This document shows, one piece after another, positions 19,169 to 64,000 of a stretch of 64,000 bases of DNA. The stretch is from Diplonema papillatum (lineage: Eukaryota; Euglenozoa; Diplonemea; Diplonemida; Diplonemidae): positions 84,980-148,979 of the forward strand of contig JAPJBO010000572.1 of NCBI GenBank assembly GCA_030068145.1, given 5' to 3'. Under the pieces are notes generated by a model. It was not told where the DNA came from. It was given only the letters and a program-made list of their open reading frames with translations, and did no database searches. Within the stretch, counting starts at the first letter, position 1; each line of letters begins with the position of its first letter. The translations under genes were made by a program, and so were the position numbers.

Positions 19169-39233
<20,065 letters not shown>

Positions 39234-58799: not shown

Positions 58800-60153
58800 T
58801 CGCCACACGGACGTATGGAGTGGGAGTCTGGGGCCTGAGCGTCCCCCGGCAGACGGGGAAAGACCTGGAAGCGCTGCACTACAAGGCAGCGAAGTACGTC
58901 ATTGGGTGTCCCCTGAGCGCGAAGAGAGAGGCGGTTTATGCCGAGGCTGGACTCCAGCCATTCGCGACTCTGGCGGCCTACGAAGCGACGCGGGTTCGAC
59001 AGCTCCTGCTACGCTCGGCTCGAGCTCCCTCCGACAGGCTCGCCGGGACCTCAAACAGGTGGCAAAAGGAGACGGACAAGGTGGCCGCAACAACAGGACT
59101 CGCGAAAGCGAAAATCGTACGGACTCAGTGCACGAACTCCTTCGCACCGTGGGAAGCGCCTCCGACGATACACATGGGATGCAAGCTGGACGGCGGGTTC
59201 AAGAAGAGCGGCGATGCTGCGAGAAATCGCCGAGCGGCAGAGGAGAAGATCGGCAGGCTCCCTCCCGCCGACGTAACCATTTGTACGGATGGCTCCCTGA
59301 CTACCCCTGCCGACGGCCTCCCACAGGGCTCGTACGGCATAGTGGTAGAGACCAAGGAAGGTCTCACGACGCTCGCGAAGAACATCGGTCTTTGCCACTC
59401 GAGCTTCCTCGCCGAGCTGAGAGCGATCGTCGTGGCACTCATGGAGGCCTGCTCGTGGGCTCCCGGCGACAGGCGGGTTCTACTGGTACTCACCGACTCG
59501 CAGTCCGCTCTCGCCGCGCTCAAAGATCATCAGCGAAACGGCGTCCTTGAGAGACTTGCGTGGCGGGCCCTCAAAATCCTCGCGACACGGTGGCAGGTGT
59601 ATCTCCAATACGTGCCCAGCCACTGCGGGATCCCAGGCAACGAGCGCGCCGACGAGGAAGCGACGAAGGCGCACGGCCTCCCCGCAGCAAAACCCGTGAT
59701 CGACTACGACATGGTCAAGGCGATCGTGAAGAAGGGGAGAAAGGAGTACCGCTGTCAGAAGCTGAAAGCCCACCCGTACAACAGGCCGCCATCTCGGCGC
59801 TGAGGGTGGGTGCGTCCCCAATGGTGTACGGCTTCGCCCAGACTGGAGGAAACTCCCCCCTGGCCGGCACATACGTCCGGGGACGCACGGCAAGGACGCA
59901 CGACGGCCTCTGCAGCGAGTGCGGAGCGAAGTACTCGCTCGCGCATGCTATCGAAGGGTGCCCCACAGCCACGGCCTACTGGGACCTGGCCGGGTTAGCA
60001 CCAGAGGACCGAACGACACGACATGTCGTCGGAAAGAACCCGCACCTGGCGCTGGGATACTTTGCCAGCCGAGGGCTGGTACCTCAGGAGTTCGCGGACG
60101 CGGTCTTGTCGAGCCGCCGAGACGACGCAATGGCTGAAGGGGGGTCAGGGTAG
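58800..60153 (+). mobile_element. 5'-truncated non-LTR ORF2 C-terminus with RNase H, frameshifted
   Basis: YGVGVWGLSV, ALHYKAAKYVIGCPLSAK is post-RT sequence. RNase H follows: VTICTDGSLTT (Asp), SSFLAELRAIVVALMEA (Glu), VLLVLTDSQSALAAL (Asp) and VPSHCGIPGNERADEEATK. Near 59781 a one-base indel shifts the frame; reading then continues as AAISALRVGASPMVYGF and ends with the knuckle CSECGAKYSLAHAIEGC and a stop at 60153. It differs clearly from the copy at 46427, so a second family is present. Confidence 0.83.
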
Positions 60154-61326
60154 CGCCTTCCCGGTAGAGCGCCCGACTCCGAAGGCGAGCCGCGCCAGAG
60201 AAGCCGAAGCGAAGCTCCCGCCGCCCGCCAAGACGAACCAAGAATTTCTGTTTTTTTTTTTTTTTTTCTTTCGTCTTTCAATCTCCTCCTTGCGATTCTA
60301 TCTCCCAAATGCCCCCACAACGGCACCGGGTCTCTTCCGCCCCACCACCCAGGAGGTGAGGGCCCAGACCAACACCAGATGTATGTACGGCATGCTTGAA
60401 AGTGCACGAACAAAAAAAAAGAAGGGACGACGCCAAGGAAACAGGAGAAAAAAAAAAAAGACACGGAGGGCGCAGCACGACCCAAGCATGCAGAGACATA
60501 AGAGACTAATGGGCCTAATTGACTTCCCCCCTTCATCCCCTCCTCGCCCCCGTCCCCGCAACCCATTCTTTTCTTATTGTTGATTTTATTACTTTTAACA
60601 TCATAAATATCACAAGACTGACGCTCTCGGGGGCACCACAACAATCTCAGCATGATGAGAGGAAAAGCAGTGTCAAAACAGCAAAGCAGAGGCACAAACC
60701 GCCCTAAAGATTAGCGACACCCCTCTATTTCCTTCCCTTCTATGTCACTCGTACTATGTGCCTCTCTAAGGCGACAGTACGTTTGAAACCCTTTTTTTTA
60801 TTTATTTTTTTTGTCTCCGCTATTGCTCTACCATTCACACCCTCCTCTACGCCTCATCATCCCATCATCATTTAATCATTCCTTCTTTTTCCTCTTATCT
60901 ACTCCTTTTTCCCGTTTTCACATTCCATCTCTTACATCCATCACTTCCTCCCCACTCCGCCGCAGCGCTCGTGCGAAAAACGAGAATGCTGGGGCAGAAC
61001 CGCACGAAAACAGCAGAGAAGCCCCAAGCAAACCACAGCAAGAGGCGACACACGGGGAGGAAACCACCCCCAAGAAAAACGAAAGAGCGTGCAACTGCTC
61101 CAGCATTCCCTCCCTGAGCTTCCCCTCTCGGGCCACGGCACGAGCCAGAAAGAAGCTCCCCAACCGGACTTCTAACCGGAGCCGACAACAAGGCACCCCG
61201 GAAACCGTTCCTCCTCCCGACCTAACGGAGCTAAAGGATGGCCAGGTACATTCATGTTCCCGATGTTTCCCTCTCAAAAGGCTAAGGCCCAGCCTCCGTT
61301 TGTTGTCCTAGTGAGCTCTATACATC
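60154..61326. other. Region with oligo(T)/oligo(A) tracts and a Cys-containing ORF end
   Basis: An oligo(T) of 18 lies at about 60250-60267 and A-rich tracts at 60411 and 60450. An open frame ends at 61311 with KNERACNCSSIPSLSF and GQVHSCSRCFPLKRLRPSLR. It runs straight into the A tract and the SL, so it may be the 3' end of a retrocopied RNA. No family was recognised. Confidence 0.35.
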
Positions 61327-61346
61327 AAAAAAAAAAAAAAAAAAAA

Positions 61347-61385
61347 AACCAACGATTTAAAAGCTACAGTTTCTGTACTTTATTG
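61347..61385 (+). other. Genomic copy of the 39-nt spliced-leader exon
   Basis: The sequence has the start AACCAACG and the end CAGTTTCTGTACTTTATTG. The T. brucei SL exon has the same length, with AACTAACG and CAGTTTCTGTACTATATTG at identical positions. It is preceded by about 20 A (61327-61346) and followed by 12 A, not by a GT donor, so it is not an SL RNA gene. It is the 5' end of a reverse-transcribed, trans-spliced mRNA. Confidence 0.9.
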
Positions 61386-61413
61386 AAAAAAAAAAAACCA
61401 ATGTCTACAACCA

Positions 61414-62511
61414 GTGTCTGAAAAGCGGATCATCGAACTGTCATCAATCAAGGACGACCTCAAGCGGCTCCTGTCCATCTGCGGGCCCATCGAAGGTTTC
61501 GCCGTCCTTTTCGAGAAGATGGGAGGAACAGCTGCTATCGAAGACGTGCGCAATGCGGTCGGGTTCTTCCGGTCCAACGGCGTGAAGCTTGTACGATTGA
61601 GGGAGAACTGCGATGTGCAGAAGGTTTTCCGGACAGTGAGGGAGTCCGGCTACAGCGCCTATTATGCTGAGTGGGCGCTGGCAGAACCGGGGTGGACGGA
61701 GCTGAAAACGTTCCAGCGAGCAGAGGCCAGGAAAGATACGACCGTCAGACCTTTCCACGAGGTCTTGCGAGCCTTGGAAGACACGGCCATCGAAGCCAGG
61801 GTCATAAGGTCGGGGGCGAACGAGTACTTGATAAAGGTGCGCCCCGAGTCCCAGAACAAATGGGAGGACCTGGCCGAACTGCTGGACCCATCCGGGATGG
61901 CCCTGAAGCACGGTGAAAGGTACATCGTGACAAAAGCACGACGCGAGGACCAGCGCAAGGTCTTCATAGAACGTTCAAAGAAGAAGTTCGGCCTCACTGG
62001 ATGCGACCGGACGTGGCACTCCTTAGAGGTCTCAGGCGCCTTAGCCACTGCAGCAATCCGCCCTGAAAGCGGCCTAACCGTTTACCCGGTTTTCGGCCTA
62101 CGGCCGGGGTTTGTTGCTTACGTGGTGGAGGGCCTCAGCCCCATCGACGAAGCTGAGCTCGCCCGGACCCCCTTCACCACCCCGTTTGGAAACGTGCTCC
62201 GCTTTGGGCACATAGAAACCCTAATGCAACCGGTGTCAGAGGTGGAGGAGCCGGAACACCTTGCCGACGACACTAGTGGCAGTGAGAGTGGCATCGGCGA
62301 TGACGCAGACGGAGACGGAGCAACACAGAGCGCAGCTGGAAAAGAGGAAGAAGGTACGAACGAAACGAACGAGAGCGCAGCCGGGGGCGGCACCCAGAAC
62401 ACGGAGGAATCCGTTGTCACCGGAAGCGATAGGGAGAGGCGCGGGACGAAGCGGGCAGCCTCATCCGAAATGGGTTTCACCCCACCGCCAAAGACGCCAC
62501 CCAGACTGTAG
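61414..62511 (+). CDS. ORF1 of the SL-bearing non-LTR element
   Basis: 365 codons are open from just after the SL. Counting back, the frame is free of stops to 61387 but has no ATG; the first in-frame ATG is at residue ~36. An ATG at 61401 is in another frame and stops after six codons, so a one-base change near the start is likely in this copy. The protein is basic and folded-looking for ~270 residues (SIKDDLKRLLSICGPIEGFA, NEYLIKVRPESQNKWEDLAE, VFGLRPGFVAYVVEGLSP) and ends in an acidic Ser/Gly/Glu tail with RRGTKRAASSE. Its position before the endonuclease ORF makes it the ORF1 (RNA-binding) protein by inference. Confidence 0.65.
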   Translation: MSEKRIIELSSIKDDLKRLLSICGPIEGFAVLFEKMGGTAAIEDVRNAVGFFRSNGVKLVRLRENCDVQKVFRTVRESGYSAYYAEWALAEPGWTELKTFQRAEARKDTTVRPFHEVLRALEDTAIEARVIRSGANEYLIKVRPESQNKWEDLAELLDPSGMALKHGERYIVTKARREDQRKVFIERSKKKFGLTGCDRTWHSLEVSGALATAAIRPESGLTVYPVFGLRPGFVAYVVEGLSPIDEAELARTPFTTPFGNVLRFGHIETLMQPVSEVEEPEHLADDTSGSESGIGDDADGDGATQSAAGKEEEGTNETNESAAGGGTQNTEESVVTGSDRERRGTKRAASSEMGFTPPPKTPPRL

Positions 62512-62675
62512 CCTTAACCTAACAAAGCAGCGACGACGTCGAGCTCTGTGTCGCAAACGCCCAGCTGCAGCTTTCACGATCAGCACCATCACACCCAGGC
62601 AACAAGTAGCTCTCTCCCTGGCCCTGGCCCACGCCTGATGCCGCAACCCCTTAACCCGGGCGGCGGCGCTTTGGC

Positions 62676-64000
62676 ATGAGCCAGGAACCTCAAGGGGAGC
62701 AGCGCGAGAGGCATCATCCACGTTTCAAAGGCCCACACACCCAGGCAACAAGTAGCACGCGCGGCCCAGCCTCAGCCCCCGCATCATCATCATTGTCCGT
62801 CCCACCCGCATCATCAGGTGTCCCCCTCCTCCCCTTGCCCGTCCCACCCGCATCATCAGGTGTCCCCCTCCTCCCCATCCCCACCAGAGCACGTGGTTCA
62901 CCAAAGCAGCCTATCCCCACCCACAACCCCATCATACTCCCTCCCCAAGTACTAATTCTACCAGCTGCCCCGCCAGCTACAAGTAATCAGCCGGATGCAG
63001 GACTCCGATCATCATCACCACAACAACCAGCCTCTTCACCGCCAAACAATCAAGCACCGGTTCAGCTCACCATGTTCCCACCCACCATCTCCAAAGAAGG
63101 CGATGCATACAACCCCGCAAACCACCGCCCTGTCACCCCATCCGCTGGAAGCAAAGTACGTATCGTAAGCTGCAACTCATGCTGCAAGAAGAGTCTGTCT
63201 GCCTTCTTCGACCTACTCCCTTGTGCGAACATCCTAGCTGTGAGCGCGATTCGAAGACATGGCGCGACTTAAAGGCTGGCAAGTGCTAGTAGTCGCAGTG
63301 GAAGAGTTGGGGTCAAAACGAATTGCCCGAAGCAGCATCCTTGTCCCGAACAGCTCATCGACGCACATCCTACGCACGGGATCGCACCGCACCTGCTGTT
63401 ACGCCGATCTGAAGATAGGAGAGCGAGTCCTGCGCATCGTTTCTGTATACGTCGTAAACAACACCCTAAAAGCAGAGGCGGAAGCCCTCGGCAGCTGGAT
63501 CGTGAACACAATGAGGAGGTCCCCAGGCGAATACGTGGTCACCGGAGACTTCAACGGAAATACGACACCCGCCGTCGAAGGATTCGTAAGGGACAAGGCG
63601 GGCGACGAACTCGTACGAGGACGGACGACCTACCAGCGCAGCAACGCCAGCACATCGCTAGACAGGGTTTTCGTACCCCGAGGAACAAGTTGCGTTTTCG
63701 TATCCGCGCGCTTCTCAGGCGGGAGCGACCATGCAGCAATCACCGTAGAGTACGACCACACGATCGTGAGGGTAATTCCACCGATGAGATACCCCAAAAA
63801 CGACCGACCTGTGGCAGACGACTTTGACGGGCTCATGGCGACAATGACTGGCCCCCTGGTAGTCAGACCACCACGCTACCGCACAACCAAAATCGCACGA
63901 CTCCAACGGGCCCTCAATACGAGGTTACTGAATCGACGCACTGCCACGAACGAGGACGAAAAGAAGGAGCTGAATCGCCAAATCAACGACATCCGGAGAC
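62676..64000 (+). mobile_element. ORF2 of the SL-bearing element: Pro-rich leader + AP-type endonuclease, partial
   Basis: The ATG at 62676 opens a Pro/Ser-rich region with a tandem VPPASSGVPLLP duplication (about 62805-62880). From 63160 the endonuclease begins: VRIVSCNSCCKKSLSAFFDL. A frameshift near 63250 moves reading to the frame starting ATG 63261, which stays open to the window edge: RIVSVYVVNN, YVVTGDFNGN (catalytic Asp/Asn), STSLDRVFVP and SGGSDHAAITVE (Asp-His). The Glu of the expected QE motif falls at the damaged site. RT lies beyond the window. Confidence 0.75.

Follow-up and report, generated by a model that had tools for sequence, protein, structure and literature searches.

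Introduction

DinoSL-tagged retrogenes of dinoflagellates were reportedly described by Slamovits and Keeling in 2008. In dinoflagellate genomes, relicts of the spliced leader (SL) mark copies of trans-spliced mRNA and tandem relicts count rounds, as set out in the accessible portions of three reports (PMC6050394, PMC12014239, PMC8045281), where cellular genes are the tagged copies and their machinery is given as unknown. A TG inside a truncated relict may serve as an acceptor, a suggestion drawn from truncated relicts in the available text of PMC12014239. RNA-virus EVEs with dinoSL, that is, non-cellular inserts with a spliced leader nearby, have also been described from dinoflagellates (PMC10235124, in the part accessible).

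Within the Euglenozoa, the retroelements SLACS, CRE and CZAR are linked to the SL by insertion at one position of the SL RNA gene, and carry a restriction-like endonuclease (PMC12278014, accessible text). The ingi/L1Tc elements of trypanosomatids are endonuclease-type non-LTR elements in hosts with polycistronic transcription and SL trans-splicing; L1Tc has an internal Pr77 promoter, an HDV-like ribozyme and unspliced transcripts (PMC8190864, PMC12278014, likewise from their accessible text). For Diplonema papillatum itself, a 39-nt SL exon has been reported, and essentially all mRNAs are taken to bear it, by extrapolation from validated genes; about 2500 retroelement gene models are given, and the accessible part of that report makes no mention of SLs on retroelements (PMC10161547). 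Thus SL-tagged retrogenes and the counting of relicts are known in dinoflagellates, while for LINEs, or for SL-tagged retrocopies in Euglenozoa, no report was found among the literature matches listed, a search that mostly left subscription papers outside.

This study focused on the 5' part of a non-LTR retrotransposon at the end of a 64,000-nt stretch of D. papillatum DNA (the window; contig JAPJBO010000572.1, positions 84,980 to 148,979, forward strand), in which an SL exon precedes the first open reading frame of the element (ORF1). Like the DinoSL retrogenes, the Diplonema element has an SL relict at an acceptor-type junction before coding sequence, as well as tandem relicts, but non-LTR elements make up many of the tagged copies, the SL has 39 nt and an internal CAG, and leaders captured at landing sites could be traced to genomic sources. 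It resembles ingi/L1Tc in element type, in its occurrence in Euglenozoa and in mode of host transcription, but differs from L1Tc in that its copies have little in common upstream of ORF1 beyond an A tract and CC..ATG, and the SL junctions indicate splicing. For an HDV-like ribozyme, there was no Rfam match at E<=1 in 60700-62600 and none at the gathering threshold in the whole window. In contrast to SLACS, CRE and CZAR, the SL is the copied 5' end of an mRNA, with the exon intact and no SL RNA intron after it. The dinoflagellate EVEs, for their part, are viral fragments and not a self-mobilising element with serial leader replacement.

Results

The SL exon copy and its flanks

The SL copy and the sequences abutting it are as follows.

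61327..61346, + strand: A tract directly 5' of the SL (from the sequence; likewise in 12 of 14 SL-bearing ORF1 copies)
61347..61385, + strand: complete SL exon copy, 39 nt (exact match, unique in the window; equals the exon of the SL RNA gene)
61386..61400, + strand: whole remaining leader, A12 and CCA (from the sequence; A12CCAATG also in copy L062)

Allowing up to 3 mismatches, the 39-mer AACCAACGATTTAAAAGCTACAGTTTCTGTACTTTATTG was the sole match in the window, while 100 shuffled sequences contained none. In genome loci fetched for comparison, the same 39-mer precedes GTACTTTAAC in SL RNA genes of D. papillatum. It includes an internal acceptor, GCTACAG/TTTCTG (the slash marks the junction), with its AG at 61368-61369. 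After the SL come A12 (61386-61397), CCA and an ATG at 61401, so that the SL-to-ATG distance is only 15 nt. The complete exon 5' of ORF1, the A12 and the absence of a GT donor, all claimed in the original prediction, were borne out by the sequence. A reading of the site as an SL RNA gene or SL RNA pseudogene was rejected, as the SL is followed by A12CCAATG and not by a GT donor and intron. Counting the first AA of the SL, the A tract before it is an A22 at 61327-61348, which we read, from the sequence, as the insertion target. Because this tract directly precedes the SL and merges with its AA, the earlier claim that the copy runs to the very first SL nucleotide, and so is full length at its 5' end, is undecidable at this site.

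ORF1 as listed begins at a GTG (61414) and is not in frame with the ATG at 61401, from which translation would meet a TGA at codon 7. In close copies the ORF1 start is uninterrupted, and comparison with them locates a small insertion at 61401-61414 that puts the ATG out of frame. With its ATG frame stopping at codon 7, the element copy in the window may be dead.

Coding regions of the element

The following ORFs were recognised in and upstream of the element.

58820..59803, + strand: RNase H ORF upstream of the element, on the same strand (RNase_H, E 9.4e-13)
61414..62511, + strand: first ORF (ORF1) of the non-LTR element, listed at 365 aa (112 matches in its own genome; no Pfam family)
62676..63272, + strand: 198-aa ORF within the element, without a Pfam match, overlapping the start of the endonuclease ORF
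63259..63999, + strand: endonuclease part of ORF2, open at the contig end (Exo_endo_phos_2, E 4.2e-05)

The end of the window is also that of the contig, so the element copy stops within ORF2 and its reverse transcriptase would lie beyond. A reverse transcriptase was recognised in L064, a related copy of the same ORF1 superfamily (RVT_1, E 4.6e-15), for which the matched solved structures include the R2 and LINE-1 enzymes. The Exo_endo_phos_2 matches in the window and in L062 (E 1.6e-04) are both below the Pfam curated cut-off. ORF2 relatives identified by protein search have a reverse transcriptase domain and, as read from their sequences, an RNase H-like stretch. Judged on its sequence, the element is an endonuclease (APE)-type non-LTR retrotransposon. 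The identification of the adjacent ORF as a non-LTR ORF1, made at the outset without database searches, is upheld by the 112 genome matches, the endonuclease downstream and the reverse transcriptase in a related copy. The RNase H ORF upstream is probably part of another retroelement.

ORF1 itself belongs to no Pfam family. Its best protein match was DIPPA_21945 of D. papillatum (99%), followed by DIPPA_01405, and no relatives outside Diplonema appeared in the protein searches, one of which scored only the best 7999 candidates by shared words. An AlphaFold model from 3 sequences had a mean pLDDT of 38.7, too poor for a fold search, and gave only a hint of a strand-helix-strand-strand-helix-strand order at residues 99-177.

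Some other features of the window may be recorded here. About 146 nt at 62590-62756, from one ACACCCAGGCAACAAGTAGC copy to the next, are missing from L062. At 32567-38511 there are one TG and four CA/AC dinucleotide tracts, all very long (59 to 157 units, 97-100% matches), and an ORF of 2380 codons at 20594-27736 contains several tandem-repeat arrays.

SL copies across the genome

The D. papillatum genome (271 Mb, 2910 contigs) contained 600 matches to the SL 39-mer when up to 3 mismatches were allowed; the reversed sequence, used as a control, had no match. Of SL RNA-like places, with the SL end joined to the intron start at up to 2 mismatches, there were 213; the published count is 110 SL RNA genes at >=90% identity, with a 39-nt exon and a 75-nt intron (PMC10161547, accessible text). 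Exact SL cores (32-34 nt) without a following GTA fell into three sets: 69 in which the next base is not G, 140 with G and then a base other than T, and 140 with GT and then a base other than A. All 69 of the first set were fetched, and only part of each 140 and of the 600; in the fetched loci, 91 distinct SL instances outside SL RNA were readable. Many of these dispersed SLs precede long ORFs that belong to a few families, and several of the scanned ORFs have reverse transcriptase or endonuclease domains, while many are without a Pfam match. As to the check named in the original prediction, whether 39-mers outside SL RNA arrays cluster at the 5' ends of one non-LTR family, they occur before ORF1 copies and before ORFs of several families.

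Several further observations were made on the dispersed SLs. With SL+GTA excluded, the base after exact cores is G in 280 of 349, which may reflect a preference at acceptor exon position +1 or a few dominant families. In L080 (C1261, SL at 1496, - strand) the SL stands directly before an ankyrin-repeat ORF (Ank_2, E 1.7e-44); this is likely an SL-tagged retrocopy of a cellular gene, and SL capture is accordingly not unique to elements. In L023 (1501), L035 and L063 the SL lies between two identical or similar short sequences, the left one preceded by AG in L023 and L063; these look like transcripts copied back beside their own acceptors. Eight SL-bearing copies of different families (L001, L005, L007, L019, L020, L029, L039 and L053) are inserted near ..acttaaaagaactcaatgct.., a shared neighbourhood that suggests a preferred target site.

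5' ends and insertion sites of the ORF1 family

ORF1 has at least 112 matches in the genome, from 99% to about 28% identity (112 scored of 180 candidates). The 5' flanks were compared in the first 30 start-intact copies by similarity to the query, with the start-missing copies C1451, C32, C1731, C712, C364 and C796 set aside. An SL lies just upstream in 14 of the 30 and is absent from 16; by identity, SL-bearing copies make up 5/7 at 99%, 1/10 at 72-73%, 5/9 at 43% and 3/4 at 35-36%. None of the 14 SLs is followed by an SL RNA intron, so the refuting case of an SL RNA locus, named in the original prediction, did not arise, although in L009 and L122 the SL is followed by the GT of another sequence.

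An A run of at least 8 occurs within 60 nt before the ATG in 29/30 copies, the exception being L009 with A6. In the 25 nt before the SL, a run of A>=8 is present in 12 of the 14 SL-bearing copies, compared with 0.6% of the window positions sampled; L122 and L123 have only A5 there. Flanks recur between copies: ..GGTGCTTATACA-A(n) precedes L104, L108, L110 and L114, and ..AGTTGTC.. ends before L102, L109 and L115, so insertion is often into the A-rich end of a second repeat that has the same orientation. Not every copy fits this: the flank of L105 is the reverse strand of window 60798-61128. Target-site duplications were sought as direct repeats at the 72 SL instances for which 1 kb or more of downstream sequence was available. 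Of 5 hits none was convincing: in L035 and L063 the repeat directly adjoins the SL on either side, L065 and L069 have one common 11-mer with its match 1.8 kb downstream, and L067 has a single 10-mer.

Between SL and A tract, the five SL copies at 99% have, respectively, no spacer; a 16-nt remnant plus TCTTCGCAAACAG; CAAGTCAAAAGTCTGAGTG; CACTCTG; and GC. Overall, 12 of the 14 SL-bearing copies have a spacer of their own. Only L009 and L122, of the 43% subfamily, have a leader in common (GTTGTACACGATTTTGAGGG.., L009 being about 270 nt longer before the ATG), so these two may be siblings or parent and child. The notion of the SL as the element's own fixed 5' end does not survive this comparison, as the SL is present in only 14/30 copies and, bar one pair, each with its own spacer.

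Splice junctions and captured leaders

Apart from indels, L062 and the window are 4 substitutions apart over about 1.3 kb. L062 reads ..GCAAACAG-A12-CCAATG where the window reads SL-A12-CCAATG. The SL/A12CCAATG of the window thus stands against CAG/A12CCAATG in L062, and is the product expected from trans-splicing at that CAG.

Where leaders had SL-free relatives in fetched sequence, AG precedes 10 of 14 (background 0.0598, binomial P 4.7e-10), a leader being counted only if AG stood before it in all relatives passing the SL filter. The related leaders of L045 and L070 reduce these to about nine independent cases. The four leaders whose relative has no AG are L048, L053, L057 and L100, and for L048 and L053 the compared relatives themselves carry an SL that the filter passed. 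With a looser SL filter, 11 leaders had AG and 12 did not, 14 SL-on-SL cases apart; for 10 of the 12, some or all of the copies compared have an SL a few nt upstream, so that these leaders bear on acceptor choice only weakly. As 37 of the 82 leaders had no SL-free relative and 8 were of low complexity, the AG test covers a minority of them.

Sources could be named for several leaders. That of L042 is a repeat ending in an A tract (GGCAG/TCTCC), and that of L044, common to L082, is also an A-tract-ended repeat (GGTAG or GGCAG/AGAAACC). The leader of L086 comes from the window itself, at ATTAG/CGACACC:

60715..60738, + strand: stretch reappearing as the captured leader behind the SL in L086, preceded by TTAG (24 nt identical, AG at 60713-60714)

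The element seems to have no fixed 5' UTR, its leader recording where its parents sat.

Serial SL remnants

A second SL fragment lies within 100 nt in 21 of the 91 SL instances. In 15 the two abut, and 14 of these second fragments begin at SL nt 24, right after the AG in GCTACAG/TTTCTG, the remaining one at nt 30. Three 16-nt remnants stand in a row in L046 and two in L079, the second with a substitution; L127 is another SL tandem, and the window copy has one SL only. These restarts after the internal AG make it appear that a genomic SL serves as the acceptor for the next one, and a relict SL so used can, going by these sequences, leave a 16-nt remnant. On this reading L062 has had at least two SL additions. 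Together with the AG-preceded junctions, the restarts point to templates that were trans-spliced mRNAs, and the proposal that such an mRNA was the template for reverse transcription in the window gains support from the junctions.

Where the SL copies begin

The 5' ends were sampled at 69 places fetched by SL nt 6-39 only, of which 63 were distinct and 15, lying in A tracts, were set aside. Of the other 48, the SL match begins with nt 2 in 27 instances and with nt 1 in 9; 6 more begin with nt 3, five of them with G at nt 2, and the last 6 further in. In kinetoplastid SLs the first nucleotide is heavily methylated, and a stop or misreading at a methylated first SL nucleotide would fit the starts at nt 2.

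Discussion

In all likelihood, the non-LTR retrotransposon whose 5' part lies in the window was copied from a trans-spliced mRNA, and its leader is replaced in each cycle. In the proposed cycle, a copy sitting in an A tract, which in some cases is where another repeat ends in A-rich sequence, would be transcribed with the local unit. The host would then trans-splice the SL onto a usable AG upstream of ORF1, either in the flank or in a relict SL, a step supported by the junctions in the DNA. Enzymes of the element would reverse-transcribe this mRNA, often to about SL nt 2, as the ends suggest, and the cDNA would be inserted in another A tract. Copies without an SL may be insertions that lost everything upstream of the leader's own A tract. 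The resulting leader would hold a stretch from the site where the parent had landed, and every cycle that used a relict SL as the acceptor would add one 16-nt SL remnant to it.

The broken start frame of the window copy, and the SL before the ankyrin-repeat ORF of L080, would be expected if the copy were a one-off, processed and pseudogene-like, with no bearing on the life cycle of the element. We consider this unlikely, as the SL is present in 14/30 copies, in subfamilies from 99% to about 36% identity, and serial remnants, such as that of L062, stand before ORFs of several families.

It is also quite improbable that the SL and ORF1 were joined by template switching, from SL RNA or from the leader of another mRNA, and not by trans-splicing. 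Such jumps could account for the 4 of 14 leaders without AG, and the 16-nt repeats could in principle come from slippage, but jumps predict neither the AG at 10/14 leaders nor the 14/15 restarts after the internal AG.

That five of the seven 99% copies with intact starts carry the SL would suit an SL acquired once, as a fixed part of the element's 5' UTR, and inherited by all copies. The spacers, however, differ in all five, the SLs of other subfamilies have other spacers again, 10 of 14 testable leaders match external sequence with AG before it, and a leader is shared by only two (L009 and L122) of the 14 SL copies, which makes a single acquisition highly improbable. Insertion of a SLACS/CRE-like element into SL RNA genes, the SL exon being flank, is scarcely credible even though SLACS-type reverse transcriptases are annotated in the D. 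papillatum genome (PMC10161547, accessible text), because the exon is whole and not split, no SL RNA intron follows it, and an A tract lies upstream.

Leader replacement in each cycle thus being the preferred reading, a wider one may be built on it, to which we would give an even chance of being correct: that a set of Diplonema LINE families gave up any fixed 5' UTR and promoter. They would ride on the transcription unit of the landing site and obtain a cap from the host SL at a nearby AG, the copied SL acting as a portable acceptor. This departs from the original prediction that a copied SL would gain the element a cap and translation signal wherever it lands downstream of a promoter, as a DNA copy of the SL alone brings neither cap nor promoter. 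Landing in the A-rich tails of repeats on the same strand would provide acceptors and make correctly oriented transcription more likely, and the leader would be a heritable pedigree, made up of the parent's landing site and one 16-nt SL remnant for each earlier round at a relict SL.

How a promoterless retrotransposon keeps a usable 5' end is an old question, and internal promoters, ribozymes and read-through from a target gene are among the answers. In the Diplonema element, host trans-splicing would supply the usable end. Since the sequence put in place of the leader in each round would be traceable, a single genome could reveal which copy gave rise to which and how many rounds there were at the least, so that retrotransposon genealogy, splice-acceptor choice and the formation of cDNA 5' ends on capped templates would become testable in an abundant group of marine protists. 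This would extend the counting of SL relicts from the genes of dinoflagellates to the mobile elements of a distant lineage.
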